From NCBI GenBank assembly GCA_024692905.1, contig JAILLY010000062.1:1-64000 (forward strand): a DNA stretch of 64,000 bases, given 5' to 3'. Source of the DNA: Lachnospiraceae bacterium (GTDB taxonomy: Bacteria > Bacillota > Clostridia > Lachnospirales > Lachnospiraceae). The position numbers and the translations under genes were made by a program. Below the pieces are notes generated by a model that saw only the letters and a list, made by a program, of their open reading frames with translations, ran no database searches and had not been told where the DNA came from. This document shows, piece after piece, positions 4,099 to 56,834 of this stretch; the stretch's first letter is position 1, and each line of letters begins with the position of its first letter.

Positions 4099-4128
4099 GT
4101 ATCTCTCCCCGTATGTTTAATATGATCT

Positions 4129-4157: not shown

Positions 4158-4162
4158 GATGT

Positions 4163-4198: not shown

Positions 4199-4227
4199 TC
4201 ACACAAGCGTCATATACTCACTGTGTA

Positions 4228-5781: not shown

Positions 5782-5850
5782 TCTAAAACCTCCCTTTGGA
5801 TATATATTTCATAATGTGAACACTATTGTCACATCTTGAAATCACTTTGA

Positions 5851-6780: not shown

Positions 6781-6797
6781 TTGACCCTACCTCCTTC

Positions 6798-7703: not shown

Positions 7704-7743
7704 ACTGTGCTCTCCTTGTTCAAAAAACCTGGCTATTACTTTG

Positions 7744-7757
7744 CTTAATCGTTTTCG
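7744..7757 (-). promoter_or_regulatory. cre-like operator candidate
   Basis: CGAAAACGATTAAG on the minus strand keeps the core AAACGAT of LacI/CcpA-type operators but loses the outer bases. It sits at about +1 to +14 relative to the predicted start, where repression would be expected. It could equally serve a local LacI-type repressor or be chance. Confidence 0.3.
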
Positions 7758-7764
7758 CTCTTTA

Positions 7765-7793
7765 ATATTATTACATATTTTACAATTTTGCAA
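7765..7793 (-). promoter_or_regulatory. Promoter of the ABC transporter operon
   Basis: TTGCAA (7788-7793), 17-nt spacer, TAATAT (7765-7770) on the minus strand, about 55 nt before the permease ATG. The surrounding 150 nt are very AT-rich, and a second TATAAT about 70 nt upstream lacks a good -35. Confidence 0.6.
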
Positions 7794-7947
7794 GCATGAT
7801 CTTTTTGAAATTGTGCATTTTGGATGTTTTTGGATATTATACACATATTTTATACGCTTTAATTTTGCACTTTGCTGGTATTTTGTCTACTTTTTACTTA
7901 AACGATATAAATTTCTTAAATATGATGCATTTTTTTGATTTTGCCAT

Positions 7948-7979
7948 AAAAAAGTTCCCCGGGCGATCCCGGGGAACTT
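7948..7979 (-). terminator. Strong terminator of the HerA-like gene
   Basis: A perfect 12-bp stem (7952-7963 with 7968-7979) with a CGAT loop is followed on the minus strand by six T. It lies 13 nt beyond the stop of the ATPase gene. Confidence 0.9.
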
Positions 7980-7992
7980 ATACTTTCGTTAA

Positions 7993-9741: not shown

Positions 9742-9832
9742 TGTGAACCCTCCGGAATATCTGCACGATACGTAAGACAGCCGGTGATAAACACCCGGTC
9801 TGCGACCGTGATACATGATATGCAACGCATAA

Positions 9833-9862
9833 ATTATAGCACAATATCCCGGTATGACTCAA
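9833..9862 (-). promoter_or_regulatory. Promoter of the HerA-like gene
   Basis: TTGAGT (9857-9862), 18-nt spacer, TATAAT (9833-9838) on the minus strand, leaving about 85 nt of leader before the ATG at 9741. Confidence 0.55.
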
Positions 9863-9869
9863 CAGGGTA

Positions 9870-10802: not shown

Positions 10803-10978
10803 AATAATCTCCCTTCATTATCGTATTCGTATTAAAGAATGATATCGGTAATATCGTCCTTCAAACGAAATACATGCAGTAATGCCTTCCCCGTGCATCA
10901 CAACGACCCCATTATCACCGTATGGTCACAAAACATCACATCCCCATGTAAATATCACATTATGACCATTGCATGCTT

Positions 10979-11007
10979 ATTATACATCACATTTATACCA
11001 ATGTCAT
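10979..11007 (-). promoter_or_regulatory. Promoter of the CAP protein gene
   Basis: ATGACA (11002-11007), 17-nt spacer, TATAAT (10979-10984) on the minus strand. The leader would be about 170 nt. One TGTGATG motif lies in the spacer and three more downstream, which would suit an operator array. Confidence 0.5.
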
Positions 11008-11072
11008 CATTTTTTTCAAAATTGTTAACTGAATCGGATCTCCCAAAAAATAACCTGCGTTTCTAGTGTTTT

Positions 11073-11102
11073 AAAAACTTCCGGTATTTATATGCCTCCG
11101 GA
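11073..11102 (-). terminator. Possible terminator of the dehydratase operon
   Basis: TCCGG and CCGGA arms (11080-11084 and 11098-11102) enclose a 13-nt loop and are followed on the minus strand by AGTTTTT. The stem is only 5 bp and lies about 120 nt after the stop codon. Confidence 0.3.
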
Positions 11103-11219
11103 TCGTGTTTCAGTTAAAACAGGATTTAATTTAGTTGTGAACAGGGATTTTTGCAATTTTTCTCGAACTGTCGTTCGGATACGTTTTATTTCGCTAAAGT
11201 ATTAAGTCGTGTTATAAAC

Positions 11220-13193: not shown

Positions 13194-13229
13194 CGCATGT
13201 CCAAACGCAGTGATCAACGTCTGTAATGG

Positions 13230-14399
13230 CTACTTCCTGTTCCTGAGTCCCTCGATATAATGCCCAAGCCTCTCCATGGCAACCTTGAGCTTTTCAAGAG
13301 AATATGCATAACTGATCCTTATAAAGCCCTCTCCGCTGTCACCGAAGGCCGAACCCGGAACGACCGCAAGCCTCTCGGCATCGAGAAGGGCAAAAGCAAA
13401 CTCCTCGGAGGTCATGCCGAACTCCCTGATATCGGGGAATACGTAAAATGCGCCGTAAGGTTCGAAGCAGGATAATCCCATCTCCTTAAAGGAATGCATA
13501 AGGAACCGCCTTCTCTGGTCATATGATTCCCTCATCATCTTAACATCCTTATCTCCGTTCCTTAAAGCCTCAACAGCCGCATACTGGCTCGTAGTCGGGG
13601 CGCACATGATGCAGAACTGATGGATCTTGGTCATCTGGGAGATTATCTGTTCGGGACCGCAGGCGTATCCGAGCCTCCATCCCGTCATGGCAAATCCCTT
13701 CGAAAAGCCGTTTATTAAGATGGTCCTCTCCTGCATTCCCGGAAGCGAAGCTATCGAGCAGTGATCTCCGCAGTAGGTCAGTTCACTGTATATCTCATCG
13801 GATAATACGAATATATCCTTCTCAATACATACCTTTGCGATATCCTCAAGATCCTCCCTTGTCATGACAGCCCCTGTCGGGTTATTCGGGAACGGCATCA
13901 CAAGAATCTTGGTCTTATCCGTGACAGAATCAAGCAGCTCCTGTTTCGTAAGCCTGAATTCATCTTCGTTTTTGAGTTCTATGATGACGGGGACGGCACC
14001 GGCAAGTATCGCGCAGGGCTCATACGAAACATAGCTCGGCTGAGGGATCAGGACCTCATCGCCCGGGTCGCACATGGCACGCATCGCGATATCGATGGCT
14101 TCGCTTCCGCCTACCGTGATTATGACCTGTGACTTCGGATCGTATTCGATGCCGCATTTTCTTCCGATATATCCCGTTATCTCCTCTCGCAATTCGATAA
14201 GTCCGGAATTGGAGGTATAAAAGGTCCTTCCTTTTTCGAGGGAATAGATGCCCTCATCCCTTATATGCCAGGGCGTGTCAAAGTCAGGCTCGCCGACGCC
14301 CAGGGAGATCACATCCTTCATCTCGCTTGCGATATCGAAGAACTTACGTATGCCTGAAGGCTTGATATTGACGATCGTTTCAGATAACGGGTTCCTCAT
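13230..14399 (-). CDS. PLP-dependent class I/II aminotransferase
   Basis: Fold-type I aminotransferase of 389 residues, similar to PatA/aspartate aminotransferases. It has SLGVGEPDFDTP near residue 32, the NPTGA motif after MPFPN, and the PLP lysine in INGFSKGFAMTGWRLGY near residue 231. Its start overlaps the Lrp-family regulator stop as ATGA, so the pair is translationally coupled. A role in amino-acid metabolism sensed by that regulator is likely, but the amino acid cannot be named. Confidence 0.88.
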   Translation of the reverse strand: MRNPLSETIVNIKPSGIRKFFDIASEMKDVISLGVGEPDFDTPWHIRDEGIYSLEKGRTFYTSNSGLIELREEITGYIGRKCGIEYDPKSQVIITVGGSEAIDIAMRAMCDPGDEVLIPQPSYVSYEPCAILAGAVPVIIELKNEDEFRLTKQELLDSVTDKTKILVMPFPNNPTGAVMTREDLEDIAKVCIEKDIFVLSDEIYSELTYCGDHCSIASLPGMQERTILINGFSKGFAMTGWRLGYACGPEQIISQMTKIHQFCIMCAPTTSQYAAVEALRNGDKDVKMMRESYDQRRRFLMHSFKEMGLSCFEPYGAFYVFPDIREFGMTSEEFAFALLDAERLAVVPGSAFGDSGEGFIRISYAYSLEKLKVAMERLGHYIEGLRNRK

Positions 14400-14878
14400 G
14401 GCATCATTATCATCCTTTCATCCGTCTTGTCACCGTTAAGTATGGTTCCGTGATCCTTATACTTCTTGAGCACGAAATGTGTCGTCGTGGAGATAACATT
14501 CTCAAGCGTCGAAAGCTTCTGGGTCACGAAACTGCTTACTTCCTTAAGAGTCTTGCCTTCGAGCGAAACGAGAAGATCATAGCCTCCCGAGATGAGATAT
14601 GTCGCATTGACCTCGGGGTACTTATATATCCTTTCGGCTATATCATCAAATCCGTGGCCGCGCTGGGGAGTTACCCTGACTTCTATGAGCGCGTTCACAC
14701 GGTCTGTAGTCACCTTGTCCCAGTCTATAAGGGTATGATATCCGCAGATTATCCCCTCGGATTCCATATCTGTAAGTTCCTTTGTTATCTCGGCTTCCGT
14801 CGTTCCGAGGAGCACGGCCAGTTCGGCAAGCTCAACACGGCTGTTCTTTTCGATGTAATTAAGTATCTTCTCTCGCAT
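14396..14878 (-). CDS. Lrp/AsnC-family transcriptional regulator
   Basis: Feast/famine regulator of 160 residues. The N-terminal helix-turn-helix contains RVELAELAVLLGTTEAEITKEL, and the C-terminal RAM domain begins VNALIEVRVTPQRGHGFDDI and has the loop ISGGYDLLVSLEG, which binds amino-acid effectors in this family. The ATG at 14878 follows GGAGGAATGAA; a longer frame from 14914 has no better site and overlaps the upstream gene. It probably controls the coupled aminotransferase. Confidence 0.87.
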   Translation of the reverse strand: MREKILNYIEKNSRVELAELAVLLGTTEAEITKELTDMESEGIICGYHTLIDWDKVTTDRVNALIEVRVTPQRGHGFDDIAERIYKYPEVNATYLISGGYDLLVSLEGKTLKEVSSFVTQKLSTLENVISTTTHFVLKKYKDHGTILNGDKTDERMIMMP

Positions 14879-24112: not shown

Positions 24113-25246
24113 TCACGAAAGTGCCTCCGCCATGCGGTCCCAGGAAAACCTGTACTCCCGGTCGGCAATACCCTGTATATATCTGTCCTTCCTGCCTTCC
24201 GAAAAATACGTATGGATGGCAGAGGCAAGCGCCTCATCATCGAAGGGCTCCACGATCATTCCGGTCACGTCGTCCTCAACAACCTCCGGGAGTCCGCCTA
24301 CCCTCGTGACTATCACGGGCTTTCTGAATCCGTATGCTATCTGGACTATCCCGCTCTGGGTCGCCGATTCATACGGCAGTACCACAAGATCTGCCGCCGA
24401 GAAGTATTTTTCCACCTCTTTATCCGGGACATACCCGTCTTTTATGGTTATATCTTCACCTATTCCGAGGCTGTCAATAAGTGCAAGGTATTCATCCTTT
24501 CCGCCGTCAAAGTCACCAACGACATAAAGCTTCGGGATCCTGCCGGCTCCTTCATACCTGTCTTTAAGTATATGCATCGCATTTAACAGGTGCTTAAGTC
24601 CCTTATATTCCCTTACAAATCCGAAAAACAGCATCATATCTTCATCATCCGGGATAGATAACCTCTTCCTTGCACTGCCGCGGTCAAGATTCTCAAAATT
24701 AAATGCGCTGTATGTCGGATGGACCGAAACCCTGTAATCAGCATCGGGCTTTATCGACAGAAGATCCTTAACCTCACCGTTCGCATGCAGGATGAATGAG
24801 TCTCCTCTCTTTAATGCCATGCGTGTAAGCTGCCTGTCAAGCGGGAATCTCTCGTGGGGGAACACGTTATGGCATATATATACGACTTTTATACCTGCCT
24901 TCTTAAGCCTGCGCGTCAGCAGCGTATAGCACGGCGCGAAATAGGGATGCCACCACTGGATGATGACTTTCTCCGGTTTCATGCGGACAATCTCCCCTGC
25001 CGTCTTAAGTATATTGAACGGGTTTGCCGTATTTATAAGGAACTTCGTACCCTCAACCCTGAAGTGATCGTTTTCGTAGTCTCTCTGCTCCCTTTTGAAA
25101 AGAAGCTTCGGATACTGCATGCTGTATGAGATCATCTCCACATCGCGGACCTTTGAAAGCGCACGATACATAAGACCTGTATAATGGGATATCCCGCCTT
25201 TATACGGATAAACGGGCCCGATCAGTACCCACTTATTCTCTGCCAT
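24113..25246 (-). CDS. Glycosyltransferase, GT4 family
   Basis: GT-B-fold retaining transferase of 377 residues. The N-terminal donor-independent domain has GPVYPYKGGISHYTG. The C-terminal domain has the GT4 hallmark EKYFSAADLVVLPYESATQSGIVQ, containing the EX7E-like acidic pair, followed by PVIVTRVGGLPEVV. It probably adds a sugar to a surface glycan intermediate. It overlaps the next glycosyltransferase upstream by 14 nt, so the two are coupled. Donor and acceptor cannot be named. Confidence 0.87.
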   Translation of the reverse strand: MAENKWVLIGPVYPYKGGISHYTGLMYRALSKVRDVEMISYSMQYPKLLFKREQRDYENDHFRVEGTKFLINTANPFNILKTAGEIVRMKPEKVIIQWWHPYFAPCYTLLTRRLKKAGIKVVYICHNVFPHERFPLDRQLTRMALKRGDSFILHANGEVKDLLSIKPDADYRVSVHPTYSAFNFENLDRGSARKRLSIPDDEDMMLFFGFVREYKGLKHLLNAMHILKDRYEGAGRIPKLYVVGDFDGGKDEYLALIDSLGIGEDITIKDGYVPDKEVEKYFSAADLVVLPYESATQSGIVQIAYGFRKPVIVTRVGGLPEVVEDDVTGMIVEPFDDEALASAIHTYFSEGRKDRYIQGIADREYRFSWDRMAEALS

Positions 25247-34107: not shown

Positions 34108-35292
34108 ATGGATCATTCGTCATTTTTGATAAAATACGCTGAAATAGCCATAAAAGGCAAGAACCGCTATGTGTTTGAAGATGCCCTCATGAAGCAGATG
34201 AGATATGCCTTAAAGAAGGTCGAGGGTGACTTTGAGATAACAAAGACCCAGGGCCGCGTGCATGTCGACTGTCTCGGAAGCTTCGACTATGATGAGGTGA
34301 TCGGAGCATTATCAAGGGTCTTCGGCATCACCGGCATATGTCCGGTGGTACGTGTTCCGGACGAAGGCTTCGACAGGCTCTCGGAAGACGTGATAAAGTA
34401 TATTTCCGATGAGTATCCCGACAGGAATAAGACCTTCAAAGTCAACTGCCGCCGCGCCAGGAAGAATTATCCCTTGGATTCGCAGGAAGTGAACATGGAA
34501 ATGGGCGGCCGCATACTCGATGCCTTCCCGGAAATGAAGGTGGACGTTCACGATCCCGATATACTTCTCACGATAGAGATCCGCGATGACAATATATATA
34601 TCTATTCAAAGATCATCCCGGGCCCGGGCGGCATGCCCGTAGGTACCGGCGGCAAGGCGATGCTGCTGCTCTCCGGCGGGATCGACTCTCCGGTTGCGGG
34701 TTATATGATCGCCAAGCGCGGCGTCAGGATAGATGCCGTATATTTCCATGCGCCTCCGTATACTTCGGAAAGGGCCAAACAAAAGGTCATGGATCTTGCA
34801 AGGCTCGTATCACGGTATGCCGGCCCGATAACACTTCATGTTATAAACTTTACCGACATACAGCTTGAGATCTACGAAAAATGCCCGCATGACGAACTGA
34901 CCATAATAATGCGCCGTTACATGATGAGGATCGCCGAAGACATTGCCCGGAAGAATGACTGTCTCGGGCTCATCACCGGCGAGAGCATCGGCCAGGTCGC
35001 TTCCCAGACCATGCAGTCCCTGGCAGCGACGAATGAAGTCTGCACGATGCCCGTATACCGCCCTCTCATCGGTTTTGACAAAAACGAGATCATAAAGATA
35101 TCCGAAAAGATAGATACCTTCGAGACTTCAATACTTCCTTACGAGGACTGCTGCACGATATTCGTTGCCAAGCATCCCGTAACGAAGCCGAACGTAAATA
35201 TCATAAGACGATCCGAAAACAATCTTGCGGAGACCATTGATGAGCTCTACAGAAAAGCGATCGAAACAGACGAAGTCATCGTCGTTTCATAA
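34108..35292 (+). CDS. thiI: tRNA 4-thiouridine sulfurtransferase ThiI (no rhodanese domain)
   Basis: Adenylates and thiolates U8 of tRNA using sulfur from the preceding desulfurase. The 394 residues have an N-terminal ferredoxin-like/THUMP region (about 60-165) and a PP-loop ATP pyrophosphatase domain with LLSGGIDSPVAGYMIAKRG near 188, then GESIGQVASQT and YEDCCTIFVAKHP. The C-terminal rhodanese domain of Escherichia coli ThiI is absent, as usual in Firmicutes, so the desulfurase probably transfers sulfur directly. Confidence 0.93.
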   Translation: MDHSSFLIKYAEIAIKGKNRYVFEDALMKQMRYALKKVEGDFEITKTQGRVHVDCLGSFDYDEVIGALSRVFGITGICPVVRVPDEGFDRLSEDVIKYISDEYPDRNKTFKVNCRRARKNYPLDSQEVNMEMGGRILDAFPEMKVDVHDPDILLTIEIRDDNIYIYSKIIPGPGGMPVGTGGKAMLLLSGGIDSPVAGYMIAKRGVRIDAVYFHAPPYTSERAKQKVMDLARLVSRYAGPITLHVINFTDIQLEIYEKCPHDELTIIMRRYMMRIAEDIARKNDCLGLITGESIGQVASQTMQSLAATNEVCTMPVYRPLIGFDKNEIIKISEKIDTFETSILPYEDCCTIFVAKHPVTKPNVNIIRRSENNLAETIDELYRKAIETDEVIVVS

Positions 35293-37063
35293 GGGCAAGC
35301 TCATACTGTTCCTCCTGGGCTGTACATTGGGTGCGGCCTGTTTCTTATGGATATACGGGGCAAGGGTCTTAAATCCCGTATATGACGGATGGCTTTTTGG
35401 CGGTGACATAGATCTTGCTCAGCATTATATCGGCTTCTGTCATTACCGCTTAAGTCCGTGGCGTTTTCCTCTCGGAATGACCGATACCTTAAGCTACCCT
35501 TCGGCCATGTCCGTGATCTATACCGATTCGATCCCGCTCTTTGCGTTCATCTTCAAGCTTTTTAAAGGGATACTGCCTTTAAGGTTCCAGTATTTCGGGA
35601 TTTTCGGACTGATGAGTTTCATGCTTACGGGCGGACTCTCATCACTCCTTGTTTTCAACCTTATAAGCCGCGATAAGGATATATCCGATCCTGTCTCCGA
35701 CACGGGCTTTCCATTCATAAACGCCAATCTTAACTATATCATAAGCCTTACGGCATCACTTATATATATCCTCAGTTTCACCGTTCTCCAGAGGATGTTC
35801 TATCATACGGCGCTCGGTGCCCAGTGGATCCTCATACTTGCGCTGTATATATGGACGGTCAGGGGATCTTTGAGCAAAGTCAGGGTCTTTACGCTCTACT
35901 GCCTCATGGGATTTCTCTGCGTCGGCATACACAGCTATTTTATCCCGATGACCGGACTTATCCTGCTTGGAGCATCAGTCGAAACATTAACCGTCCGTAA
36001 GGACAGCTCGTTTAAGGAAGAGCTGATGAATCTTGCCGGATTCTGTGCCTTTGGCCTTCTGACTCTCTTCGTTTTCGGCGCATTTTCCGGTCCTTCAAAC
36101 GGTTACGAGGAAGGGTTTGGAACCTTCACGAGCAACCTTAACACCTTTATCGATCCGCTTTACGGCAGCATCCTTATAAAACCCATGAAGCTTTATTACG
36201 ATTTTCAGTATGAGGGCTACTCATACCTTGGTATAGGCATGTTCCTGCTCATCGCCGCCGCTGCATATTATCTTATCCGGGAGATGCACCGGGAAGGCTT
36301 TAAGCGTTATCTTCGCTCCCATATAAGAGTCACCCTGTTCCTTGTCATCATTATCCTGGGCTTTATGCTTGCGGTGCTTCCGACGGTTGCCTTTTGCGGA
36401 TCAAGGATCGTTTCACTCCCCATCCCGGGCGTGCTTAAAAAGGCGGCAGGCATCTTCCGCTCAAACGGAAGGTTCATCTGGGTGCCGGAATACCTGATCT
36501 TTACAGGAGCCCTGGTATTTAGCTGCAGGCTCTTAAAGGAGCAGTTCCTTAAGTCGGAAAAAGGCAAGAGCATCATGTTAAAGCTCCTTATCTGTGCCGT
36601 CCTGATACAGGTCCTTGACGCGACTGCGGTCATATCGGATAAGCAGGGGTATTTTAAGCATGAACAGTCACACAAAAACCGCTGGGGCACGTTTTTGATG
36701 CCGGGCATAAAAGAGGCCGGGGATGACTTTCCGGACGGGTATGATGAGTTCGTTTTCCTGTTTAACGACCATGAACTCGGTATAATAATGGACACCGCTT
36801 ATTATGCCTATCTAAACGGTATGAAGCTTAACAACTATTACTATGCGAGAAACATCGACGATGCGATAAATGAGGATATTGCCGGGTGGCTTGAGAAGAT
36901 AGGCGAAGACCGGACCGGCGATGATATCGTATACATCTGCTTAAACGAGGACTTGAAAAACGGTATAAGGACAGAAGACGGAAGGACGATCTCCCTTGCG
37001 GATGCGGATATAGACTGGTACGAACTTGATAAGGACCATATGGCCGGGGTTAAAAAAAGGTAA
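35240..37063 (+). CDS. DUF6311-type polytopic membrane protein
   Basis: A 607-residue integral membrane protein with about ten hydrophobic segments between residues 15 and 460 and a soluble C-terminal domain of about 140 residues. Near the N-terminus it reads DGWLFGGDIDLAQHYIGFCHYRLSPWRFPLG, typical of the DUF6311 group, whose layout resembles GT-C lipid-linked sugar transferases; the function is not established. The ATG at 35240 follows GGAG with 7-nt spacing, so the gene overlaps thiI by 53 nt in another frame. Confidence 0.75.
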   Translation: MSSTEKRSKQTKSSSFHKGKLILFLLGCTLGAACFLWIYGARVLNPVYDGWLFGGDIDLAQHYIGFCHYRLSPWRFPLGMTDTLSYPSAMSVIYTDSIPLFAFIFKLFKGILPLRFQYFGIFGLMSFMLTGGLSSLLVFNLISRDKDISDPVSDTGFPFINANLNYIISLTASLIYILSFTVLQRMFYHTALGAQWILILALYIWTVRGSLSKVRVFTLYCLMGFLCVGIHSYFIPMTGLILLGASVETLTVRKDSSFKEELMNLAGFCAFGLLTLFVFGAFSGPSNGYEEGFGTFTSNLNTFIDPLYGSILIKPMKLYYDFQYEGYSYLGIGMFLLIAAAAYYLIREMHREGFKRYLRSHIRVTLFLVIIILGFMLAVLPTVAFCGSRIVSLPIPGVLKKAAGIFRSNGRFIWVPEYLIFTGALVFSCRLLKEQFLKSEKGKSIMLKLLICAVLIQVLDATAVISDKQGYFKHEQSHKNRWGTFLMPGIKEAGDDFPDGYDEFVFLFNDHELGIIMDTAYYAYLNGMKLNNYYYARNIDDAINEDIAGWLEKIGEDRTGDDIVYICLNEDLKNGIRTEDGRTISLADADIDWYELDKDHMAGVKKR

Positions 37064-48889: not shown

Positions 48890-48916
48890 TTAGCACTCGA
48901 CAACATAGAGTGCTAA
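48890..48916 (-). promoter_or_regulatory. CIRCE operator (HrcA binding site)
   Basis: Perfect TTAGCACTC-N9-GAGTGCTAA inverted repeat at about +5 to +31 of the hrcA transcript. Binding blocks transcription of hrcA-grpE-dnaK-dnaJ-SIMPL until heat or misfolded protein occupies GroEL. Confidence 0.97.
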
Positions 48917-48927
48917 CATCTATAGAT

Positions 48928-48956
48928 ACATTAGCACCGTATTTATTTATTGTCAA
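48928..48956 (-). promoter_or_regulatory. Sigma-A promoter of the heat-shock operon
   Basis: Perfect TTGACA (48951-48956), 17-nt spacer, TAATGT (48928-48933) on the minus strand, directly upstream of CIRCE. Confidence 0.85.
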
Positions 48957-48960
48957 GTAA

Positions 48961-48992
48961 TAAAAAAAGAAATGCAAAGTATTTTGCATTTC
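48961..48992 (-). terminator. Second, tandem terminator after the histone-like gene
   Basis: A 10-bp stem (48969-48978 with 48983-48992) followed on the minus strand by a seven-T run. It backs up the terminator at 48993-49021 and insulates the heat-shock promoter. Confidence 0.8.
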
Positions 48993-49021
48993 AAAAAAAA
49001 GACACCGGATAAACCGGTGTC
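48993..49021 (-). terminator. Terminator of the histone-like gene
   Basis: GACACCGG/CCGGTGTC 8-bp stem with a 5-nt loop, followed on the minus strand by eight T. Confidence 0.92.
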
Positions 49022-49043
49022 TGGATTTACTGATCGTATCGGA

Positions 49044-49487
49044 TTATGCTTCGAAGCTTCCGTTTACTCCGTCAGCTACGTAGTAAACCATCTTCTCTGC
49101 AGCGTTTACATAGATATCGATCTTCTTAGCATCAGCCTTGTTGATCTTCTTGTAATCCTTGGCTGCCCTTGATACAAGCTTATCAACATCAACGTTCCTG
49201 TCATCAAACTGAAGCTCGATCGTTGACTTAACAACAACCTTCTTGGTAGCCTTCTTGGCTGCGGGCTTCTTAGCTGCTGCAGGCTTAGCCGCTGCCTTCT
49301 TAACTGCGGGCTTAGCTGCTGCCTTCTTAGCTGCGGGCTTAGCTGCTGCCTTCTTGACTGCGGGCTTAGCTGCTGCCTTCTTAACTGCGGTAGCCTTCTT
49401 AACTGCAGGCTTGGCTGCTGCTACAGCTTCAGCCTTCTTCTCGGCTGATGCGGGTGCAACTGCAACCGGTTTCTTAACTTCTGCCAT
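49044..49487 (-). CDS. Ala/Lys-rich histone-like protein with DUF6465-type C-terminal domain
   Basis: A 147-residue protein in two parts. Residues about 10-85 are an Ala/Lys/Pro array of AVKKAAAKP-type units, resembling the tail of histone H1 and of bacterial H1-like proteins. Residues 86-147 are a small folded domain (STIELQFDDRNVDVDKLVSRA and KIDIYVNAAEKMVYYVADG) of the kind called DUF6465 in Lachnospiraceae. Nucleic-acid or nucleoid binding is inferred from composition. It has a consensus promoter, GGAAAGGAG and two terminators, so it is monocistronic and probably abundant. Confidence 0.82.
   Translation of the reverse strand: MAEVKKPVAVAPASAEKKAEAVAAAKPAVKKATAVKKAAAKPAVKKAAAKPAAKKAAAKPAVKKAAAKPAAAKKPAAKKATKKVVVKSTIELQFDDRNVDVDKLVSRAAKDYKKINKADAKKIDIYVNAAEKMVYYVADGVNGSFEA
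49233..49412 (-). repeat. Imperfect 30-bp coding repeats of the Ala/Lys tail
   Basis: Repeated units encoding KPAVKKAAA-type decapeptides. Several neighbouring units are identical in DNA, so slippage or recombination could change tail length in frame. Confidence 0.85.
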
Positions 49488-49562
49488 GTTGATCTCCTTT
49501 CCTCTCTCACAACAAAAAACTACTTATATAAATTTAAAAAATCAACTGCATTGACAATGAGT

Positions 49563-49590
49563 ATTATAGACATTTTTTTGGAAATGTCAA
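49563..49590 (-). promoter_or_regulatory. Strong promoter of the histone-like gene
   Basis: TTGACA (49585-49590), 16-nt spacer, TATAAT (49563-49568) on the minus strand: both hexamers are perfect. The spacer itself carries a seven-A tract. Confidence 0.85.
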
Positions 49591-49694
49591 ATTTTTTTAA
49601 AGTATTTTTTTTATTATTTTTTTTGACGTTTTTTTACATCATTTTTTTGATGATTTTTTGTATGTTTTTTTCATCATTTTTTTAACGGTTTTTT
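49573..49694 (-). promoter_or_regulatory. Array of ten phased A-tracts upstream of and within the promoter
   Basis: On the minus strand there are ten runs of 6-8 A. Plus-strand starts are 49573, 49592, 49605, 49617, 49629, 49642, 49654, 49665, 49677 and 49689. Nine lie upstream of the -35 with 11-13 nt between starts. Such arrays bend DNA and can act as UP elements. Confidence 0.8.
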
Positions 49695-49718
49695 GTTGCG
49701 GATCTTTCTAAAAAAAGA

Positions 49719-50441
49719 TCAGTTTCCGAGGATAGAAAATCCCAAACTTTTACCGTCATTTACAAACATCCGGACCGTCTCAAGCGACAGCTGCGTAAGA
49801 TCTTTTCCGAGGTTCGGAAGCTTCGCTAAAATGTTGTTTGTAACGGTGATTATATCAGTACCGCACTGGTCTGCCTGGATGATATTGTAAAGCTCCCTGC
49901 AGCTTGCCCATAACGATAAAGTTCCGGGTTTCTTTTTACATATTTCCGTTACCTCTTTCATGATCGGCATTGCATCCACACCGGTGTCAAGTATCCTTCC
50001 GGCAAACACCGAAACTATATTTTTTGTACCGGGTTCAAATGCATCCACAACCGCACGTACCTGATCGAGTGTAAGTATCGCTGTCGCATTTATCTTGATA
50101 CCCTTTGCGGAAAGTTTTTTGATAAGCGGAATGCTTGATTCTCCATTTGAATTTGTAATGGGTATTTTAACGTACACATTATCACCGAGTGCCGCGATCA
50201 CGTCGGCCTCTTTTTCCATCGTGTCAAAGTCATCCGCGAACACTTCAAGCGACAACGGAAGATCGGGTATCTCCTTTATCGCTTCCTTTGCAAAGCTGAC
50301 GTAATCCTTAACGCCTGCCTTCTTCATGAGCGTGGGATTTGTGGTGAATCCCTTAACATACCCCTTCCTGTACTCCTCCTTCATTCCTTCGATGTCCGCA
50401 CCGTCTGCATAAACCGTTACCTTAAGATCTTCAAACTTCAT
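49719..50441 (-). CDS. Transaldolase (small, FSA/TalC-type)
   Basis: Schiff-base aldolase of 240 residues. The TIM-barrel family shows KGFTTNPTLMKKAG, the lysine strand VYVKIPITN near residue 86, KINATAILTLDQV, SVFAGRILDTG and WASCRELYN. The ATG at 50441 follows GGAGG; the longer frame to 50477 overlaps the upstream gene. It ends a run of heptose-pathway genes, so it could supply sedoheptulose-7-phosphate, the substrate of the next enzyme. A fructose-6-phosphate aldolase activity is the alternative. Confidence 0.85.
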   Translation of the reverse strand: MKFEDLKVTVYADGADIEGMKEEYRKGYVKGFTTNPTLMKKAGVKDYVSFAKEAIKEIPDLPLSLEVFADDFDTMEKEADVIAALGDNVYVKIPITNSNGESSIPLIKKLSAKGIKINATAILTLDQVRAVVDAFEPGTKNIVSVFAGRILDTGVDAMPIMKEVTEICKKKPGTLSLWASCRELYNIIQADQCGTDIITVTNNILAKLPNLGKDLTQLSLETVRMFVNDGKSLGFSILGN

Positions 50442-50466
50442 ACTCCTTCTCCTCCTATAGAATATT

Positions 50467-51066
50467 TTATGATACAAATTGCTCCATTGCCTTCGGCAAT
50501 TCCCCTTGTATCAGCGCATTGACCATCAGATGCCATACAACACCCTGCCATCCTTCGGCATGAGGTGTGATCCTCTCATCCGCGACTACCGGTATGAGCA
50601 CGCATGCGTCACTCACCTGCTTTGAATATCCGCCTGTCCTTGATACGATGGAAATGACTTTTGCTCCTCTTTCCTTTGCAAGCTTAAGCGCATTTACGAT
50701 ATTGAGACTCGTGGTCTCGGAACCGCCTCCGACCGAGAATACCATGACGCAGTCCTTATCGTTTATCTTTGATGTCTTGAGCCACTCGGAAAAAGTAGTC
50801 TCCCAACCCTCGTCATTTGTACGCGCCGTAAGTTCGGATACGTTATCGGTGGGCGCATAGGTTTCTATCTTTCCTATCTTGCGGAAATCATTGACCGCGT
50901 GCGATGCGTTTGCGGCACTCCCGCCGACTCCGAGGATGAAAAGACGTCCTCCGTCATCCCTTATCTTCTTAAGGATCTCTATCCCTTTTGCGATCTCGTT
51001 CCTGTCGATGGTCTCCACGATCCTTATCGTTTCTTCCATGTACCTGTCAATGTAAGCTGTACTCAT
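50467..51066 (-). CDS. SIS-domain phosphosugar isomerase (GmhA-like)
   Basis: A 199-residue SIS protein with LFILGVGGSAANASHAVNDF, the phosphate loop FSVGGGSETTSLNIV and ITPHAEGWQGVVWHLMV. GmhA enzymes convert sedoheptulose-7-phosphate to D-glycero-D-manno-heptose-7-phosphate; the neighbouring kinase, phosphatase and nucleotidyltransferase genes support that role here. AAGGAGG precedes the ATG. Other phosphosugar isomerases share this fold, so the substrate is inferred from context. Confidence 0.8.
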   Translation of the reverse strand: MSTAYIDRYMEETIRIVETIDRNEIAKGIEILKKIRDDGGRLFILGVGGSAANASHAVNDFRKIGKIETYAPTDNVSELTARTNDEGWETTFSEWLKTSKINDKDCVMVFSVGGGSETTSLNIVNALKLAKERGAKVISIVSRTGGYSKQVSDACVLIPVVADERITPHAEGWQGVVWHLMVNALIQGELPKAMEQFVS

Positions 51067-51112
51067 TTTGTAACCTCCTTATTTGATATTTATACTTCAC
51101 CGCCAAGGCGGA

Positions 51113-52519
51113 TCACTTACCTTTACCTGTATCGGGTATGAACTCTGCTGCTTCGGTAACGTTCCTGACGATGCCGGTCGGTCCCGCATCACACAGTTTC
51201 CTGCAGGCATCACATTTTAATTCACCTATGAATATCGTGTTCACTCCGGCTGCCTGACCCGCGACTATATCTGTAAAAGAATCACCCACCATGAACGAAT
51301 TATCGTAATCGATATTGTAGATGTCCCCCGGTTTAAGCAAAAGTCCGGGCTTTGGTTTCCTGCAGTCGCATTTCTTTATAAGGAATCCTTCCTTTGTGTT
51401 CTCACAGACCGACGGATAATGCGGACACATAAATACGCCGTCGATATCCGCTCCCTGTCCGGCCATCTGTTCAACAAACATCGTGTTTATATCATACAAT
51501 GTCTTTAATTTGCATTTTCCTTTGGCGGCTCCCGGCTGGTTCGTTGCAAGGAATACGTAATATCCTTTTTCCTTCATGATCTTTATTGCTTTTGCCGCTT
51601 CCGGAAATGCCTTAAACTGTTCGACCTTCTGGGGTGAGTCCATCTGTTCGGCATCCTCGTTGAACACTATCTCGTTAAGCACTCCGTCCCTGTCAAGGAA
51701 CACTGCGGGATGCATCTCGTTGAACCTGTACTTTACATATCCCTTAAACTCATTAAGCGCACCGGGACTTCCTATCTCGTAGAAACGTTTTGTGACTATG
51801 TGTGCCGCTATTTTTTTATCAAGGCTTAACCTGTTCTGGATGAGGGCTATGTCAAATTTTATATCTGCCGGCCCACCGTTCTCTCCGGCCCCTGACTCTG
51901 CGGGGATACCGGTTATATCCTTTAAATACTCATCCTCAAAGAGTGACTTTTCATAAACACATACACCGTAATCTATATAATCCATCTCCGGCGTCATGTT
52001 CATCTTGTCGTACAGTTTTATTTCCGTTCCGTCCATGACGACATTGCTCTTGTCAAAACGGTTGCCGTTCTTAAGTACGGTCATGAGTGCACGCATGCCG
52101 CGTGACTTACCCTCGAAATACCGGTACAGTGTTTCCTCATAATCTATATCCATAAAAGAGTCACCGTACATAAGGAGAAAGTCATCCTCCAAAAGACCGT
52201 ATGCCCTCCTTACCGCACCGCCGGTACCGAGCAGTTCCTTCCCGTCGTAGCAGTAGGTAACGGATATCCCGAGCCTGCTGCCGTCGCCGTAATACTCCTC
52301 GATCATCTCGGCACGGTAGCCTATAAGGAACAGGAATTTCCTGAAACCGTGATGCATAAGGAGCTTGAGCGAATAATCAAAGAACGGCCTTCCTTCAACA
52401 TCGACAAGCGGTTTCGGACACTCCTTCGTGTATTCCTTTAACCTTGTGCCGAGTCCTCCCATCAGGACTACAACCTGCATATCCGCGGGTTCTTTTATGT
52501 AAAAACTTCCCTCTGACAA
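51113..52519 (-). CDS. Fused sugar nucleotidyltransferase (HddC-like) and HAD phosphatase (GmhB-like)
   Basis: A 468-residue two-domain enzyme. Residues about 12-260 are a nucleotidyltransferase with VVVLMGGLGTRLKEYTKECPKPLV. Residues about 268-455 are a HAD-IIIA phosphatase with the nucleophile motif FLDRDGVLNE, LATNQPGAAKG and the GmhB zinc loop CPHYPSVCENTK...CDCRKPKPG. In the GDP-heptose route GmhB removes the 7-phosphate and HddC adds GMP, so the two consecutive steps are fused. The start is a TTG at 52519 after GAGG; an ATG at 52480 is possible. Confidence 0.85.
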   Translation of the reverse strand: MSEGSFYIKEPADMQVVVLMGGLGTRLKEYTKECPKPLVDVEGRPFFDYSLKLLMHHGFRKFLFLIGYRAEMIEEYYGDGSRLGISVTYCYDGKELLGTGGAVRRAYGLLEDDFLLMYGDSFMDIDYEETLYRYFEGKSRGMRALMTVLKNGNRFDKSNVVMDGTEIKLYDKMNMTPEMDYIDYGVCVYEKSLFEDEYLKDITGIPAESGAGENGGPADIKFDIALIQNRLSLDKKIAAHIVTKRFYEIGSPGALNEFKGYVKYRFNEMHPAVFLDRDGVLNEIVFNEDAEQMDSPQKVEQFKAFPEAAKAIKIMKEKGYYVFLATNQPGAAKGKCKLKTLYDINTMFVEQMAGQGADIDGVFMCPHYPSVCENTKEGFLIKKCDCRKPKPGLLLKPGDIYNIDYDNSFMVGDSFTDIVAGQAAGVNTIFIGELKCDACRKLCDAGPTGIVRNVTEAAEFIPDTGKGK

Positions 52520-53494
52520 TTATAATACCCTCGATCCTTCCATCTCAAAGCGGAACCTTACTTCTTCCATTCCGGTATCCTTCATCGCTTCGCGCAGCTT
52601 CCTCTTGTCATCACAGTAGAACATTAAGAATCCGCCGCCGCCTGCTCCGATCATCTTTCCGCCTCTGGCTCCGTTCTTGAGCGCCAGTTCATACCATTCA
52701 TCTATCTGCGGATTGCTCATTCCCCCCGAGCGTTTCTTCTTATACTCCCAATGCACGTTCATGATATCGGCGAATGCATTAAGGTCACCCTTCTCAAACG
52801 CAGCCTTGCTCTGGTATCCCAAATCCTTGACAAAATCAAGATTCTTCAACATGTCCGAATTCTTGCTCTTGCTCTTATCATCCTGCTCTTTAAGGATGCT
52901 CCCGGCAGAACGGGAGAATCCGGTAAAGTAAAGGATGAGATTATCCTCAAGATCAAACAGGGTTTCCCTTGAGATATTAAGAGGATCGACCCATACATAT
53001 CCGTCCTTATGGAAGTTCATGCAGGTGATGCCGCCGTATGCCGCTATATACTGGTCCTGTTTGCCGATAGGCTCTTTAAGACGGTTCATCTCGATCTCAC
53101 ATGCTTCTTCGGCGAGCGTACGCGTGCTCACGATATTGCCCTGCATCGTATGAAGAGCGCGAAGGAGCGCAGTCGTGAAACTGCTCGACGAACCGAGTCC
53201 GGTTCCCGCAGGTATGTCTGCCATGGAGCATATCTCGATATTGTCATCCTTCCAGTCAAGGAGCTTAAGTGCTTCCCTTATGATCGGGTGCTGTATCTCA
53301 TCGATCTCCTTAACGTGTTCGAACTTGGAATACTTGAGAATATATCCCTTTTCAAAAGTCTCATGCAGGGTTATATACACATACTTGTCGATTGCTGCCG
53401 ATATAAGGAATCCCTCTCTTTGCTGGTAATAAGAAGGAAGGTCTGTTCCTCCTCCTCCGAGCGAGATCCGAAGCGGGCTGCGTGCTACTATCAT
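52520..53494 (-). CDS. GHMP-family sugar kinase (HddA-like)
   Basis: A 324-residue GHMP kinase with the substrate loop ARSPLRISLGGGGTDLP at the start, the ATP loop PAGTGLGSSSSFTTALL near residue 107 and the C-terminal KMIGAGGGGFLMFY. HddA phosphorylates D-glycero-D-manno-heptose-7-phosphate at C1; mannose-, fucose- and heptose-type kinases are close relatives. The ATG at 53494 follows AGGAGG. It is the first gene of the operon, and a terminator hairpin lies just upstream of its ribosome binding site. Confidence 0.82.
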   Translation of the reverse strand: MIVARSPLRISLGGGGTDLPSYYQQREGFLISAAIDKYVYITLHETFEKGYILKYSKFEHVKEIDEIQHPIIREALKLLDWKDDNIEICSMADIPAGTGLGSSSSFTTALLRALHTMQGNIVSTRTLAEEACEIEMNRLKEPIGKQDQYIAAYGGITCMNFHKDGYVWVDPLNISRETLFDLEDNLILYFTGFSRSAGSILKEQDDKSKSKNSDMLKNLDFVKDLGYQSKAAFEKGDLNAFADIMNVHWEYKKKRSGGMSNPQIDEWYELALKNGARGGKMIGAGGGGFLMFYCDDKRKLREAMKDTGMEEVRFRFEMEGSRVL

Positions 53495-53514
53495 ACTGTT
53501 ATCCTCCTGTGTTA

Positions 53515-53555
53515 AATAAAAAATCCTCATTCGATCATGCAAATCAAATGAGGAT
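53515..53555 (-). terminator. Terminator abutting the kinase ribosome binding site (possible attenuator)
   Basis: A 13-bp stem with one G-U pair (53523-53535 with 53543-53555), a 7-nt loop, then six T, an A and three T on the minus strand. The T run ends about 6 nt before AGGAGG, leaving no room for a promoter after it. Confidence 0.8.
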
Positions 53556-53758
53556 AGTATCCGTTACGATTTCCCAACCACTATTTGCTCATCCTTTTCC
53601 ATTCGCACAAACGTGTATTGAATATTTAATTATATCGCCGACTGTCCTTTGATCACATCATCTTATCCTTTTCCCATCAAGATGATGTAAGCGATCATTT
53701 GGATCCATCAACATATTGAGTTTACCACATCCGTTAAGATATGGCAATAGCACACATA
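53556..53758 (-). promoter_or_regulatory. Leader region of the heptose operon
   Basis: No gene is seen. It holds a TATAAT (53629-53634) without a good -35, and a 9-bp inverted repeat (53656-53664 with 53679-53687) at the expected -35 position. The element GGAAAAGGATRAG occurs twice. It matches no riboswitch class I can recognise. Confidence 0.45.
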
Positions 53759-54718
53759 TTAATCCCTTGCCTCAAATACCCACTGGTTGGCCATGAGATA
53801 CTCGACCGTCTTAACAACGCCTTCCTCAATTGTCGCCTTGGGCTTCCATCCGAGCGAGCGAACCTTTGCGGTATCAAGGTATATGAAAGGATTATCCCCG
53901 ATCCATCCCCTTTCACCTCCGGCATAGGTAAACTCGGGCTTAACGCCGAGCTTGCCGCAGATAAAGCGTACAGAATCATTCACTTCCACGTATTCATCGG
54001 TTCCGAGGTTATAGATGTTGACCTTCTCCTTCGCATTCCTTACCACGGTAAGTATCGCTTCCATGCAGTCCTTAACATACAGATAGGATTTCTTCTGATG
54101 TCCGTCGCCGAGTATGTGAAGATGTGCCGGATCATCCTTTAATCTCTTGCAGAAATCAAATACATGACCGTGCGTATAACGTTCGCCGAGTATCGAGACA
54201 AACCTGAAGATATATGCCGTATATCCGAAACCTTCCGCATAAGCCGCAAGCAGTCCTTCACATGCGAGCTTGCTTGCTCCGTAAAGAGATGTCTGTATCG
54301 GGAAGGGCGCATCCTCCGGAGTGGGTATTACTTCAGCCTCGCCGTATACCGAACCCGTCGACGAAAAGCCTATCCTGTTTATACCGTTGGCCCTCATGGC
54401 TTCCAATACGTTAAAAGTCGCGATGGTATTCTGCTCAAGATCCTTCTTTGGATGCTCACAGCCCATACGCACATCCGCATTGGCAGCAAAATGAAATACG
54501 AATTCGCAGCCCTTCATTGCACCGGTCATCTTCTCAAGATCGAGCGTATCACCCTCAACCAGTGTAAAGCGCGGGTTCTTGAGCGCATCCTCAAGGAATT
54601 CCCTTCTTCCGGTTGAAAAATTATCGTATGCTACAACCTTGTTCTCAGGCTCACTCAAAAGCCTGTCTACCATATTTGAACCGATGAATCCGGCTCCGCC
54701 CGTAACAAAATAATTCAT
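53759..54718 (-). CDS. NAD-dependent nucleotide-sugar epimerase/dehydratase (extended SDR)
   Basis: A 319-residue extended SDR. It has TGGAGFIGSNMVDRLL at the start, HFAANADVRMG, the serine of FSSTGSVYGEAE and the YGASK catalytic pair near residue 148. The C-terminus has NIYNLGTDEYVEVNDSV. It resembles UDP-glucose 4-epimerase-like enzymes; the substrate is unknown. It lies between the GGDEF-like gene and the heptose leader, so it may act on the heptose nucleotide or on another sugar. Confidence 0.83.
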   Translation of the reverse strand: MNYFVTGGAGFIGSNMVDRLLSEPENKVVAYDNFSTGRREFLEDALKNPRFTLVEGDTLDLEKMTGAMKGCEFVFHFAANADVRMGCEHPKKDLEQNTIATFNVLEAMRANGINRIGFSSTGSVYGEAEVIPTPEDAPFPIQTSLYGASKLACEGLLAAYAEGFGYTAYIFRFVSILGERYTHGHVFDFCKRLKDDPAHLHILGDGHQKKSYLYVKDCMEAILTVVRNAKEKVNIYNLGTDEYVEVNDSVRFICGKLGVKPEFTYAGGERGWIGDNPFIYLDTAKVRSLGWKPKATIEEGVVKTVEYLMANQWVFEARD

Positions 54719-54753
54719 ATCTTCCTTCTTTCTCCCTCACCGGGATATTAAGA

Positions 54754-55644
54754 TCATATATCCTTAAGTGCCGCTTCGGTCATTTCCTTAAACCTGATGG
54801 CATCTCTCTTAAGCGACTCATTATACTGCACACATCCGAGCCTCATCTCAACCCTGATCTCGTTATTGGGTACGACACCCGAATAAAGCTCCCTGTCCGC
54901 AAACCTCTCGGTAAGCCTTTCCTCTACGAGCTTTGCGCCGGAGATATCACAGGTAAGTATGACACCGAACCCGCCTTCCGAATCGATCGAATATACCCTG
55001 TCCTCAAGACGTACGGTATCGCATACCACCTTTGAAAGCCTGACCACTACGTCCTGGAACTCGGCTTTCTTAAGTACCGTCTTCATCTCTTCGACGTACT
55101 TGGGCCTTAAGATCATAAGACAGATCTGCTTGTTGTTTCGTTCGGCATAGGATATCTGTGTCTGGATATCCATATACATGCTTCTTAAGTTATATAATCC
55201 GGTGACCGGATCCGTCATGATGAGCTCATTTATCTGCTCACTCATGACTTCGTTGGTACGTTCCTGTTCAAGCTTTGAGGAATTGATCAGTGAATACCCG
55301 AATACAATGAGTCCCGGTACTATGAGCCATCCGAGAGTCACCTTATTATCAAGCCCTCCCGATGCAAGCGATGCAACCTTTATGCCGAGAAAGATGACCG
55401 TCTGTATGGCTGCCAGGATCATTGCCGCGTTTGTGACGCGAAAAGCGGCCAGTACGGCTACCGTGAAGGTGATCGCCACCATCGTCAGGTTCTCCTTATA
55501 CAGTTCCCTGCCGCATCCTGCCATTACTATCGATGCCGCAACAAACGCACAGAAGATGATCACCGTTCCCAGATCGTATGCCGCCTTGCCCGCATATTTC
55601 TTCTTTTTTTCTGTTATGATCTTTTCCTTCTTTTCCCTTGCCAT
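54754..55644 (-). CDS. Membrane protein with degenerate GGDEF domain
   Basis: About 296 residues: a basic N-terminus, four membrane helices (about 20-130) and a GGDEF-fold domain beginning TDPVTGLYNLRSMYMDIQ. The catalytic loop that should read GGDEF is SEGGF in the aligned position (YSIDSEGGFGVIL), so diguanylate cyclase activity is unlikely; a binding or signalling role is inferred. The ATG at 55644 has GGGA upstream; an ATG at 55671 would add nine residues. Confidence 0.72.
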   Translation of the reverse strand: MAREKKEKIITEKKKKYAGKAAYDLGTVIIFCAFVAASIVMAGCGRELYKENLTMVAITFTVAVLAAFRVTNAAMILAAIQTVIFLGIKVASLASGGLDNKVTLGWLIVPGLIVFGYSLINSSKLEQERTNEVMSEQINELIMTDPVTGLYNLRSMYMDIQTQISYAERNNKQICLMILRPKYVEEMKTVLKKAEFQDVVVRLSKVVCDTVRLEDRVYSIDSEGGFGVILTCDISGAKLVEERLTERFADRELYSGVVPNNEIRVEMRLGCVQYNESLKRDAIRFKEMTEAALKDI

Positions 55645-55680
55645 TCCGACAGATCCCGTTCCCTTACGCATACGGATCGT

Positions 55681-55935
55681 TTACTTGCTGCTTAAATATT
55701 CTTCGATACCCTTGATCGCCTCATCCTCATCCTTGCCGTCCGCAGATACCGTGATGGTGTCACCTGCAGAGAGGATAAGAGTCATCATGCCCATGATACT
55801 CTTGGCATTTACCTTTTTGTCTCCCGTCTCGATGTAGATCGAGCTCTCATACCTGCTCGCGACCTGGACAAGCATCGCGATGGGCCTGGCCTCAAGGCCG
55901 TTCTCAAGCTGAATGGTGATTCCTTTCTTTTTCAT
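55681..55935 (-). CDS. Crh-like HPr paralogue (His15 replaced by Glu)
   Basis: An 84-residue HPr-fold protein. The active site, normally GLHARPA, reads GLEARPI, so the phosphorylatable histidine is glutamate, while the HprK site is intact as AKSIMGMMTLIL. Bacillus Crh has Gln at this position and lies directly after whiA, as here. It is therefore expected to be a Ser46-phosphorylated regulator, not a PTS carrier. GGGAGGAGAG precedes the ATG. Confidence 0.87.
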   Translation of the reverse strand: MKKKGITIQLENGLEARPIAMLVQVASRYESSIYIETGDKKVNAKSIMGMMTLILSAGDTITVSADGKDEDEAIKGIEEYLSSK

Positions 55936-55955
55936 AATCTCTCCTCCCGGATATA

Positions 55956-56834
55956 CTATCCTTTGTTTGCTATATCTGAAAGCTTGCGCAGCCTGTGATT
56001 AACGCCCGACTTGCCTATGGGCGGATCGCACATTTCTCCCAGTTCCTTAAGTGACGCATCCGGATATTTAAGCCTCAGATCGGCTATCTGCCTTATCCCG
56101 TAAGGCAGCTGCCTGTAATCCGGCATAGCCATTACCTTTTTTATATCATCCGTCTGTTTGACCGATGCCGTCACGGTCTTGCCTATATTGGCAGTCTCAC
56201 AGTTCACACGTCTGTTTAAGGAGTTGCGCATTTCCTTTAATATCCTTGCGTTCTCATAATCCATAAGCGCAACATGGGCTTCCATGACGCCAAGCGCATC
56301 AACGATAGCTGCGCCCTCCTTGATATATACGACATTATGATTCTTACGGATTATCTCTCCGGCCTTTATATCGAAATGCTTGAGTATATCCTTTATGACC
56401 GCGGCACTGCCGGCGTCGCGGCATACTATCTCGAAATGATAGGATTTATCGGGATCCGATACCGAACCGGCCGCAAGGAACGCTCCCCTTAAATACGCCC
56501 TCATGCAGCAGGATTTCTGTATAAGGACATCACTGTCAAGTACCTGGGAAAGCATCCGCAGTTCATCGGGTCCACCGAGCTTAAGCTTCGAACCGCTTAA
56601 GTACTGCCCTGCATCCGCATTCTTAAATATATTAAATGTTTTTACAAGCAATGTAAAGCATTTTCCCGACGTCAGTTCGTTTTCGAGCTCGATCACCGGC
56701 TCATCTTCCGTATTCCCGTCGGGTAACTTCGCTCCGCTGTATGCAATAAGCGCTGCCAGCTCGGCGAGCTGACAGTGCCTTGATGAACCTGTATGTCTGG
56801 ATAATTCTTCCTTAACTTCCTTCGCAAATGACAT
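55956..56834 (-). CDS. whiA: WhiA sporulation/cell-division regulator homologue
   Basis: A 292-residue protein with a LAGLIDADG-like N-terminal fold (RAYLRGAFLAAGSVSDPDKSYHFEIVC) and a C-terminal helix-turn-helix (LKELGEMCDPPIGKSGVNHRLRKL). In Firmicutes WhiA affects cell division and chromosome segregation. The order hprK, ROK kinase, murB, whiA, crh keeps the whiA-crh pair known from Bacillus but lacks rapZ and glmR. Confidence 0.95.
   Translation of the reverse strand: MSFAKEVKEELSRHTGSSRHCQLAELAALIAYSGAKLPDGNTEDEPVIELENELTSGKCFTLLVKTFNIFKNADAGQYLSGSKLKLGGPDELRMLSQVLDSDVLIQKSCCMRAYLRGAFLAAGSVSDPDKSYHFEIVCRDAGSAAVIKDILKHFDIKAGEIIRKNHNVVYIKEGAAIVDALGVMEAHVALMDYENARILKEMRNSLNRRVNCETANIGKTVTASVKQTDDIKKVMAMPDYRQLPYGIRQIADLRLKYPDASLKELGEMCDPPIGKSGVNHRLRKLSDIANKG

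Follow-up and report, generated by a model that had tools for sequence, protein, structure and literature searches.

A conserved transaldolase-containing gene module of Lachnospiraceae and a candidate pathway to a nucleotide-activated octose

We analyzed a 64,000-nucleotide stretch of DNA from a Lachnospiraceae bacterium (contig JAILLY010000062.1 of assembly GCA_024692905.1; hereafter the window). Its minus strand carries a five-gene module at 49719-54718. Read in order, the genes encode an SDR epimerase, then a GHMP kinase, a nucleotidyltransferase fused to a phosphatase, a SIS protein and finally a small transaldolase. We consider it probable, with some reservation, that this module is a dedicated nucleotide-octose pathway of the lincosamide type, leading from ribose-5-phosphate through octulose-8-phosphate to a nucleoside diphosphate (NDP)-octose. 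The analysis shows the genes present, how they are conserved and linked, the predicted fold of the SIS protein with its altered metal and phosphate sites, and the genome context in archaea. We infer every substrate, the activating nucleotide and the use of the product; sequence alone leaves the substrate unfixed. A wider proposition stands about evenly balanced. It holds that this pathway is a widespread source of an unrecognised eight-carbon sugar for surface glycans, used by many bacteria and certain archaea and close to universal in one Lachnospiraceae genus of the rumen and gut, and that the sugar pathway of lincomycin derives by recruitment from this older stock.

A five-gene module with a fused central enzyme

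The original prediction described the kinase, fusion, SIS and transaldolase genes as a four-gene unit. All four are real, open, full length and on the minus strand, but the unit is larger: the SDR gene is a fifth member of the set, so the stretch should extend to 54718. We assigned families by NCBIfam, Pfam and PDB sequence searches, and the enzyme classes that had been proposed (kinase, nucleotidyltransferase, phosphatase, SIS isomerase and transaldolase) are supported by NCBIfam and Pfam. The features are as follows.

53759-54718, minus strand: SDR-family sugar-nucleotide epimerase, LmbM class, 319 amino acids (Pfam PF01370/PF16363)
53523-53555, minus strand: terminator-like hairpin between the SDR and kinase genes, directly before the kinase ribosome-binding site (14-pair stem, T-rich tail)
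52520-53494, minus strand: GHMP sugar-1-kinase, HddA/LmbP class, 324 amino acids from ATG, with aggagg upstream (NF049969, PDB 3k85)
51917-52480, minus strand: nucleotidyltransferase domain of the fusion, HddC/LmbO class, residues ~14-201 (PF00483)
51215-51712, minus strand: HAD-IIIA phosphatase domain of the fusion, GmhB/LmbK class, residues ~270-435 (PRK08942, PDB 3l8e/2gmw)
50467-51066, minus strand: SIS-domain ketose/aldose-phosphate isomerase, LmbN class, 199 amino acids, with a predicted GmhA-like fold and altered metal and phosphate sites
49719-50441, minus strand: small transaldolase, LmbR class, 240 amino acids from ATG (TIGR02134, PF00923)

The SDR shares 60-68% identity with the SDRs of the Lawsonia and Rhizobium cassettes described below and has a good PDB match, 8RDG. 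In the window's genome it may form a separate transcript that ends before the kinase, because a gap of 264 bases separates the two genes and the terminator-like hairpin lies inside it, directly before the kinase. Such patterns are no rarer in shuffled sequence (4 found, against a mean of 5.8 in the shuffles), and no Rfam family reaches its gathering threshold in 48900-56000.

The kinase scores 180.6 bits against the NCBIfam model of the HddA heptose-7-phosphate kinase (NF049969), below the cut-off of 600, and its top PDB match is 3k85 (1.1e-49). The nucleotidyltransferase and HAD domains are matched within a single open reading frame of 468 amino acids (51113-52519), confirming the predicted fusion. 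The former reaches 93 bits against the HddC guanylyltransferase model NF049965 (cut-off 300). The latter stays below the cut-offs of three GmhB models, with 126.7 bits against PRK08942 (178), 99.3 against TIGR00213 (149.6) and 85.9 against NF050049 (250), and matches Escherichia coli GmhB in PDB 3l8e/2gmw at 1.7e-22. The transaldolase, the sole PF00923 match in the window's genome, scores 366.4 bits over its full length against TIGR02134 ('transald_staph'), above the cut-off of 281.95. Its 94 bits against TIGR00875 disfavor identity as a fructose-6-phosphate aldolase.

The SIS protein combines a predicted GmhA-like fold with altered metal and phosphate sites

Against the NCBIfam gmhA model TIGR00441 the SIS protein scores 54.4 bits, below the cut-off of 209.45. 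Its predicted structure (pLDDT 86, pTM 0.84) has GmhA structures as top Foldseek matches, the best being 5i01 at a TM score of 0.75 and 24% identity; the predicted fold is thus GmhA-like. The metal quartet is H56, D60, E171 and H179 in all 91 clade members (the window, the 83 loci described below and seven archaeal loci), and H, E, Q and H in five of five annotated GmhA controls. According to the available text of a study of GmhA from B. pseudomallei, the zinc ligands H64, E68, Q175 and H183 are completely conserved among orthologues and mutants in them are less active, and it was the Q175E mutant whose four sites were all clearly occupied by substrate (PMC5705639). At the position of Q175, the SIS clade naturally carries a glutamate. 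The phosphate-site loop also differs: the five controls read STSGN (TTSGN in one) before S-x-N, and the window protein reads SVGGG, with the GGG invariant in the clade and followed by four to six extra residues. We reject the identification as a standard GmhA, since the TIGR00441 score is below the cut-off and the zinc ligands differ.

Many carriers hold a second candidate for that role. A separate SIS protein scoring at least 145 bits against gmhA occurs in 13 of 27 further bacterial carriers of the module, one of them above 209, and the module SIS proteins in those genomes score about 46-66 bits (matches in this range were counted as module SIS, with positions matched for part of them). Because these 13 have a separate GmhA-like protein, the module probably does not supply the heptose isomerase in roughly half of the carriers.

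The SIS and transaldolase genes travel together

A scan of genome contigs with the SIS alignment returned at least 574 confirmed relatives. The loci named here are the best 80 of these, which lean to close relatives, plus the plasmid loci of Lawsonia intracellularis and two Rhizobium strains, 83 in all. By their titles, the carriers belong to Lachnospiraceae, other Clostridia, Spirochaetia, Bacteroidota, Oligoflexia, Acidobacteria, Melainabacteria, Myxococcales, Omnitrophota, Patescibacteria, other candidate groups, Verrucomicrobiota, Elusimicrobia, Ignavibacteria, Eremiobacterota and Proteobacteria, as well as to the archaea Methanoregula, Methanospirillum and Methanoperedens. Among the named strains are Bacterium C-53 (L079) and strain 1XD21-72 (L108), and Rhizobium jaguaris is a carrier too.

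A transaldolase of at least 45% identity is found in 77 of the 83 loci (the identity thresholds for neighbour counts are our choice). In 73 it lies no more than 1.5 kb from the SIS gene, and the median gap is 130 base pairs. Of the 56 loci whose flanks reach 5 kb or more in each direction, 55 have the phosphatase, 53 the transaldolase, 51 the nucleotidyltransferase and 50 the kinase; an SDR of at least 50% identity is present in 41, a Gfo/Idh/MocA oxidoreductase in 20, a second SDR in 19 and a dehydrogenase in 8. Seven loci display the full nine-gene order of SDR, dehydrogenase, second SDR, Gfo/Idh/MocA, kinase, nucleotidyltransferase, SIS, HAD and transaldolase. A family of GT2 glycosyltransferases is a repeated neighbour, present in 22 of the 83 loci and suggesting that the product is destined for a glycan; none adjoins the module in the window. 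An open-access search returned no literature on the module outside the lincosamides, and being so confined it is weak evidence of absence. In the L. intracellularis plasmid (L062:6014-26623) the cassette is interleaved with membrane proteins of 1094 and 1105 amino acids and a lysylphosphatidylglycerol-synthase-type membrane protein; of the two very large proteins, the one checked (11518-14802) has no Pfam match.

In 43 of the loci (L067-L109) clusters of neighbouring genes recur, which places the module at a fixed site in this group. They include a WhiA-like protein (15 loci) and three more families (14 each), and in 17 a membrane protein situated like the one at 54754-55671 of the window (minus strand), which has a weak GGDEF domain (26 bits, Pfam) with the signature SEGGF. 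The nucleotidyltransferase and HAD domains share a single open reading frame in 37 of these 43 loci. The fusion count leaves out L062, L117 and L121, where the overlap test goes wrong because the phosphatase or a second match precedes the nucleotidyltransferase.

The window's nearest named relatives are Lachnospiraceae metagenome-assembled genomes, many of rumen origin. We searched one set of 99 genomes for both the SIS protein and TIGR02134; 37 of them, the window's own and 36 others, belong to this genus. The SIS protein is present at E<=2.6e-69 in 35 of the 37 (all except G012 and G027) and TIGR02134 is above its cut-off in 33, missing additionally from G013 and G035, whose contigs are cut at the module. 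In 33 of 33 genomes the two genes adjoin on one contig (coordinates compared by eye). The 24 genomes from other genera of the family contain neither the SIS protein at E<=1e-20 nor TIGR02134 above the cut-off, and two genomes of the same order (G064 and G075) have TIGR02134 without the SIS protein. The module is rare in a sample of 299 genomes across the phylum, where the SIS protein is matched at E<=1e-20 in two genomes, the window's and one with a weak match of 77 bits, and TIGR02134 exceeds its cut-off in the window's genome and one other. Chance linkage of the genes is rejected by the adjacency of SIS and transaldolase in the genus, in the 83 loci and in archaea.

Members of TIGR02134 also occur outside such modules: plasmid records of Treponema, Lactobacillus and Streptomyces hold standalone copies among other genes, whereas the window copy lies within a sugar-nucleotide module. 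In a transaldolase tree, three of four standalone proteins fall among the Clostridia module proteins, and the fourth joins L142 on a long branch. Two that nest among the module proteins, on Lactobacillus/Ligilactobacillus plasmids (L158:4001-4717 and L159:3998-4708), stand beside a LacI regulator and phosphotransferase system (PTS) genes. Of the 85 plasmid records matched by the SIS protein, five have it at 50% identity or more, and all five also have a transaldolase at that level. Four other listed plasmid transaldolases at 50% or more (Treponema, two lactobacilli and S. aureus) come from organisms absent from the SIS tally; this contrast is drawn from the listed matches, beyond which lie 45 of 85 SIS and 55 of 95 transaldolase records, and from the organism tallies.

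Archaeal carriers lack transketolase

The SIS protein occurs in 11 of 199 sampled genomes of one archaeal class, which with a Methanoperedens genome makes 12 carriers. A Transketolase-N match is absent from all 12 and from 20 relatives without the SIS protein; 13 of 14 control genomes, M. jannaschii included, are positive. Ten of the 12 carriers have a PF00923 transaldolase, against 0 of the 20 relatives (Fisher p = 1e-6), and by comparison of coordinates all ten lie within ~2.1 kb of the SIS gene. Of the two carriers that lack it, G398 has a contig that breaks off within the SIS gene; the other is G449.

Since these carriers have no transketolase, the usual supply of erythrose-4-phosphate (E4P) and sedoheptulose-7-phosphate (S7P) is missing, which makes a seven-carbon product hard to explain and an eight-carbon product from ribose-5-phosphate natural. 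This reasoning assumes that there is no other E4P source, and completeness figures of these genomes are not part of the data. Archaeal-type dehydroquinate synthase (DHQS) is present in 11 of the 12 carriers, which fits E4P-free aromatic synthesis without proving it; the M. jannaschii control has DHQS and transketolase together. Two archaeal loci are variants, L164 (genome G411) and L167 (G540), and show weak Gfo/Idh/MocA and SDR matches.

A candidate octose route and its alternatives

In the route that we propose, the transaldolase would transfer three carbons from fructose-6-phosphate onto ribose-5-phosphate, so that octulose-8-phosphate and glyceraldehyde-3-phosphate are formed. The SIS protein would convert the octulose-8-phosphate to octose-8-phosphate, which the GHMP kinase would phosphorylate at C1. 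The HAD domain would next remove the C8 phosphate and the nucleotidyltransferase domain would activate the octose-1-phosphate, probably using GTP in the manner of LmbO, the fusion protein coupling these two steps; the SDR would then epimerise the sugar nucleotide. Glycosyltransferases outside the module would carry the product to a surface glycan, and its use in a glycan is probable. If this route holds, hundreds of genomes (at least 574 SIS relatives) with genes called 'GmhA-like', 'HddA-like' and 'transaldolase' would encode an octose route known only from a small antibiotic group. Bacterial and archaeal surface chemistry would gain a new building block, the transaldolase would have a reason to travel with these clusters, and the origin of the lincosamides would become testable.

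Several observations weigh against the octose route. The best family matches of the kinase, HAD domain and SIS protein carry heptose names. A single strong Transketolase-N match (204 bits) occurs in the genome of the window, to which E4P and S7P are therefore probably available. The curated gmhA cut-off is passed in only one of 28 genomes (the window's and the 27 others). A sixth control, the SIS protein of a Chloroflexota plasmid (L173:589-1149), has D and E in its metal set together with a GmhA-like loop and no insertion, so the metal pair alone is insufficient to define the clade; this protein is possibly an intermediate or a separate subfamily. By the rule that we used, no residue separates the module transaldolases from the four standalone TIGR02134 proteins, and the transaldolase sequence therefore leaves the acceptor undecided. 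Six of the 83 loci have no transaldolase of at least 45% identity: in L110 and L138 the sequence stops within the SIS gene or just past it and L088 extends ~2 kb beyond it, L109 has none despite 10 kb on either side, and L136 and L139 have only matches of 26-30%. At the archaeal variants L164 and L167, a divergent transaldolase (32-33% identity) lies beside the SIS gene, and the 16 kb read contain no match to a kinase or a nucleotidyltransferase.

The main alternative is that the module makes a heptose nucleotide by the GDP-heptose route, as the original prediction had it for the known D-glycero-D-manno-heptose. We regard this as plausible but weaker, and rather improbable. The nearest named families are GmhA, HddA, HddC and GmhB, the SIS fold is predicted to be GmhA-like, the window's organism probably has E4P by virtue of its transketolase, and a four-enzyme route is established in the available text of PMC10680097, which does not include a transaldolase. 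Yet the module proteins score below the curated heptose-family cut-offs, the GmhA zinc ligands as given in the available text of PMC5705639 are altered in 91 of 91 clade members, the archaeal carriers lack transketolase, 13 of 27 other carriers have a separate GmhA-like protein, and the gene set matches the lincosamide octose route by class. The original prediction saw the transaldolase as a possible source of S7P, but the window's organism should obtain S7P through its transketolase, and a transaldolase is unneeded for S7P where transketolase exists; the same enzyme would give E4P as well, which leaves both the heptose and the octose route open for this organism taken alone. Nothing points to ADP or shows a heptose, and the suggested link to ADP-heptose and ALPK1 is unsupported. 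The present data give no ground for counting these commensals among the producers of ALPK1-type heptose signals. The description of the host as a Gram-positive gut commensal fits its nearest relatives.

The remaining alternatives concern the transaldolase. Another acceptor, such as arabinose-5-phosphate, would lead by the same steps to a different long-chain aldose nucleotide, which we consider unlikely: the sequence leaves the acceptor unfixed, but ribose-5-phosphate is universal. In the available text of PMC5854111, octulose isomers arise from different acceptors via aldolase, transketolase or transaldolase, but ribose-5-phosphate is the acceptor shown for LmbR. Very improbable indeed is that the transaldolase is the genus's housekeeping pentose-phosphate enzyme, caught by chance in a sugar-nucleotide operon. 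The window's genome encodes no other PF00923 protein, and TIGR02134 genes stand alone elsewhere, for example beside PTS genes on Lactobacillus plasmids, but the transaldolase accompanies the SIS gene in 77 of 83 loci from many phyla, and in transketolase-free archaea it is found only where the SIS gene is. The earlier view that it belongs to one biosynthetic module is supported.

Other features of the window

Downstream of the module, a gene at 49044-49487 (minus strand) encodes a lysine/alanine-rich repetitive protein with a DUF6465 domain and a histone H1-like composition; a perfect TTGACA-16-TATAAT promoter-like site lies upstream of it at 49590-49563. Possible surface-polysaccharide genes at 803-14399 and 24113-25246 encode a mannose-1-phosphate guanylyltransferase-like protein with a cupin, a UDPG/GDP-mannose-type dehydrogenase, a CapD-like dehydratase and a group 1 glycosyltransferase. 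On the plus strand, a protein with a partial DUF6311 (35225-37063) follows aminotransferase V and ThiI genes.

Comparison with the GDP-heptose and lincosamide octose pathways

A GDP-heptose route is known in a Gram-positive, Aneurinibacillus thermoaerophilus. The route of Campylobacter jejuni shares with the module the isomerase, C1 kinase, C7 phosphatase and nucleotidyltransferase superfamilies and the same order of steps; it comprises four enzymes, and the word transaldolase is absent from the available text (PMC10680097). The module differs from the route described there in having a transaldolase, in scoring below the heptose-family cut-offs and in the zinc ligands and phosphate loop of its SIS protein.

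In the lincomycin pathway, the available parts of two gene tables assign octose biosynthesis to R (transaldolase), N (isomerase), P (kinase), K (C8 phosphatase), O (guanylyltransferase) and M (epimerase), and further to L (dehydrogenase), Z (oxidoreductase) and S (aminotransferase) (PMC4351081 Table 2, PMC12945683 Table 1). LmbR uses fructose-6-phosphate or S7P as donor and ribose-5-phosphate as acceptor and forms octulose, according to the available text of PMC5854111. As far as these sources describe the lincosamide octose pathway (lmb; ccb in celesticetin), the lmbR, N, P, K, O and M classes are all represented in 49719-54718, by enzyme class rather than by Lmb or Ccb sequence. In its longer relatives the module is joined by a UDPG/GDP-mannose-type dehydrogenase and a Gfo/Idh/MocA oxidoreductase, corresponding to the L and Z classes, neither of which adjoins the module in the window; we take LmbL and LmbZ to belong to the same superfamilies as these two. 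An S-class aminotransferase is not among the recurring neighbours of the loci and does not adjoin the window's module. Unlike the lincosamide clusters, the module comes without antibiotic genes, its nucleotidyltransferase and phosphatase are fused in Clostridia, and it is distributed over many phyla and archaea.

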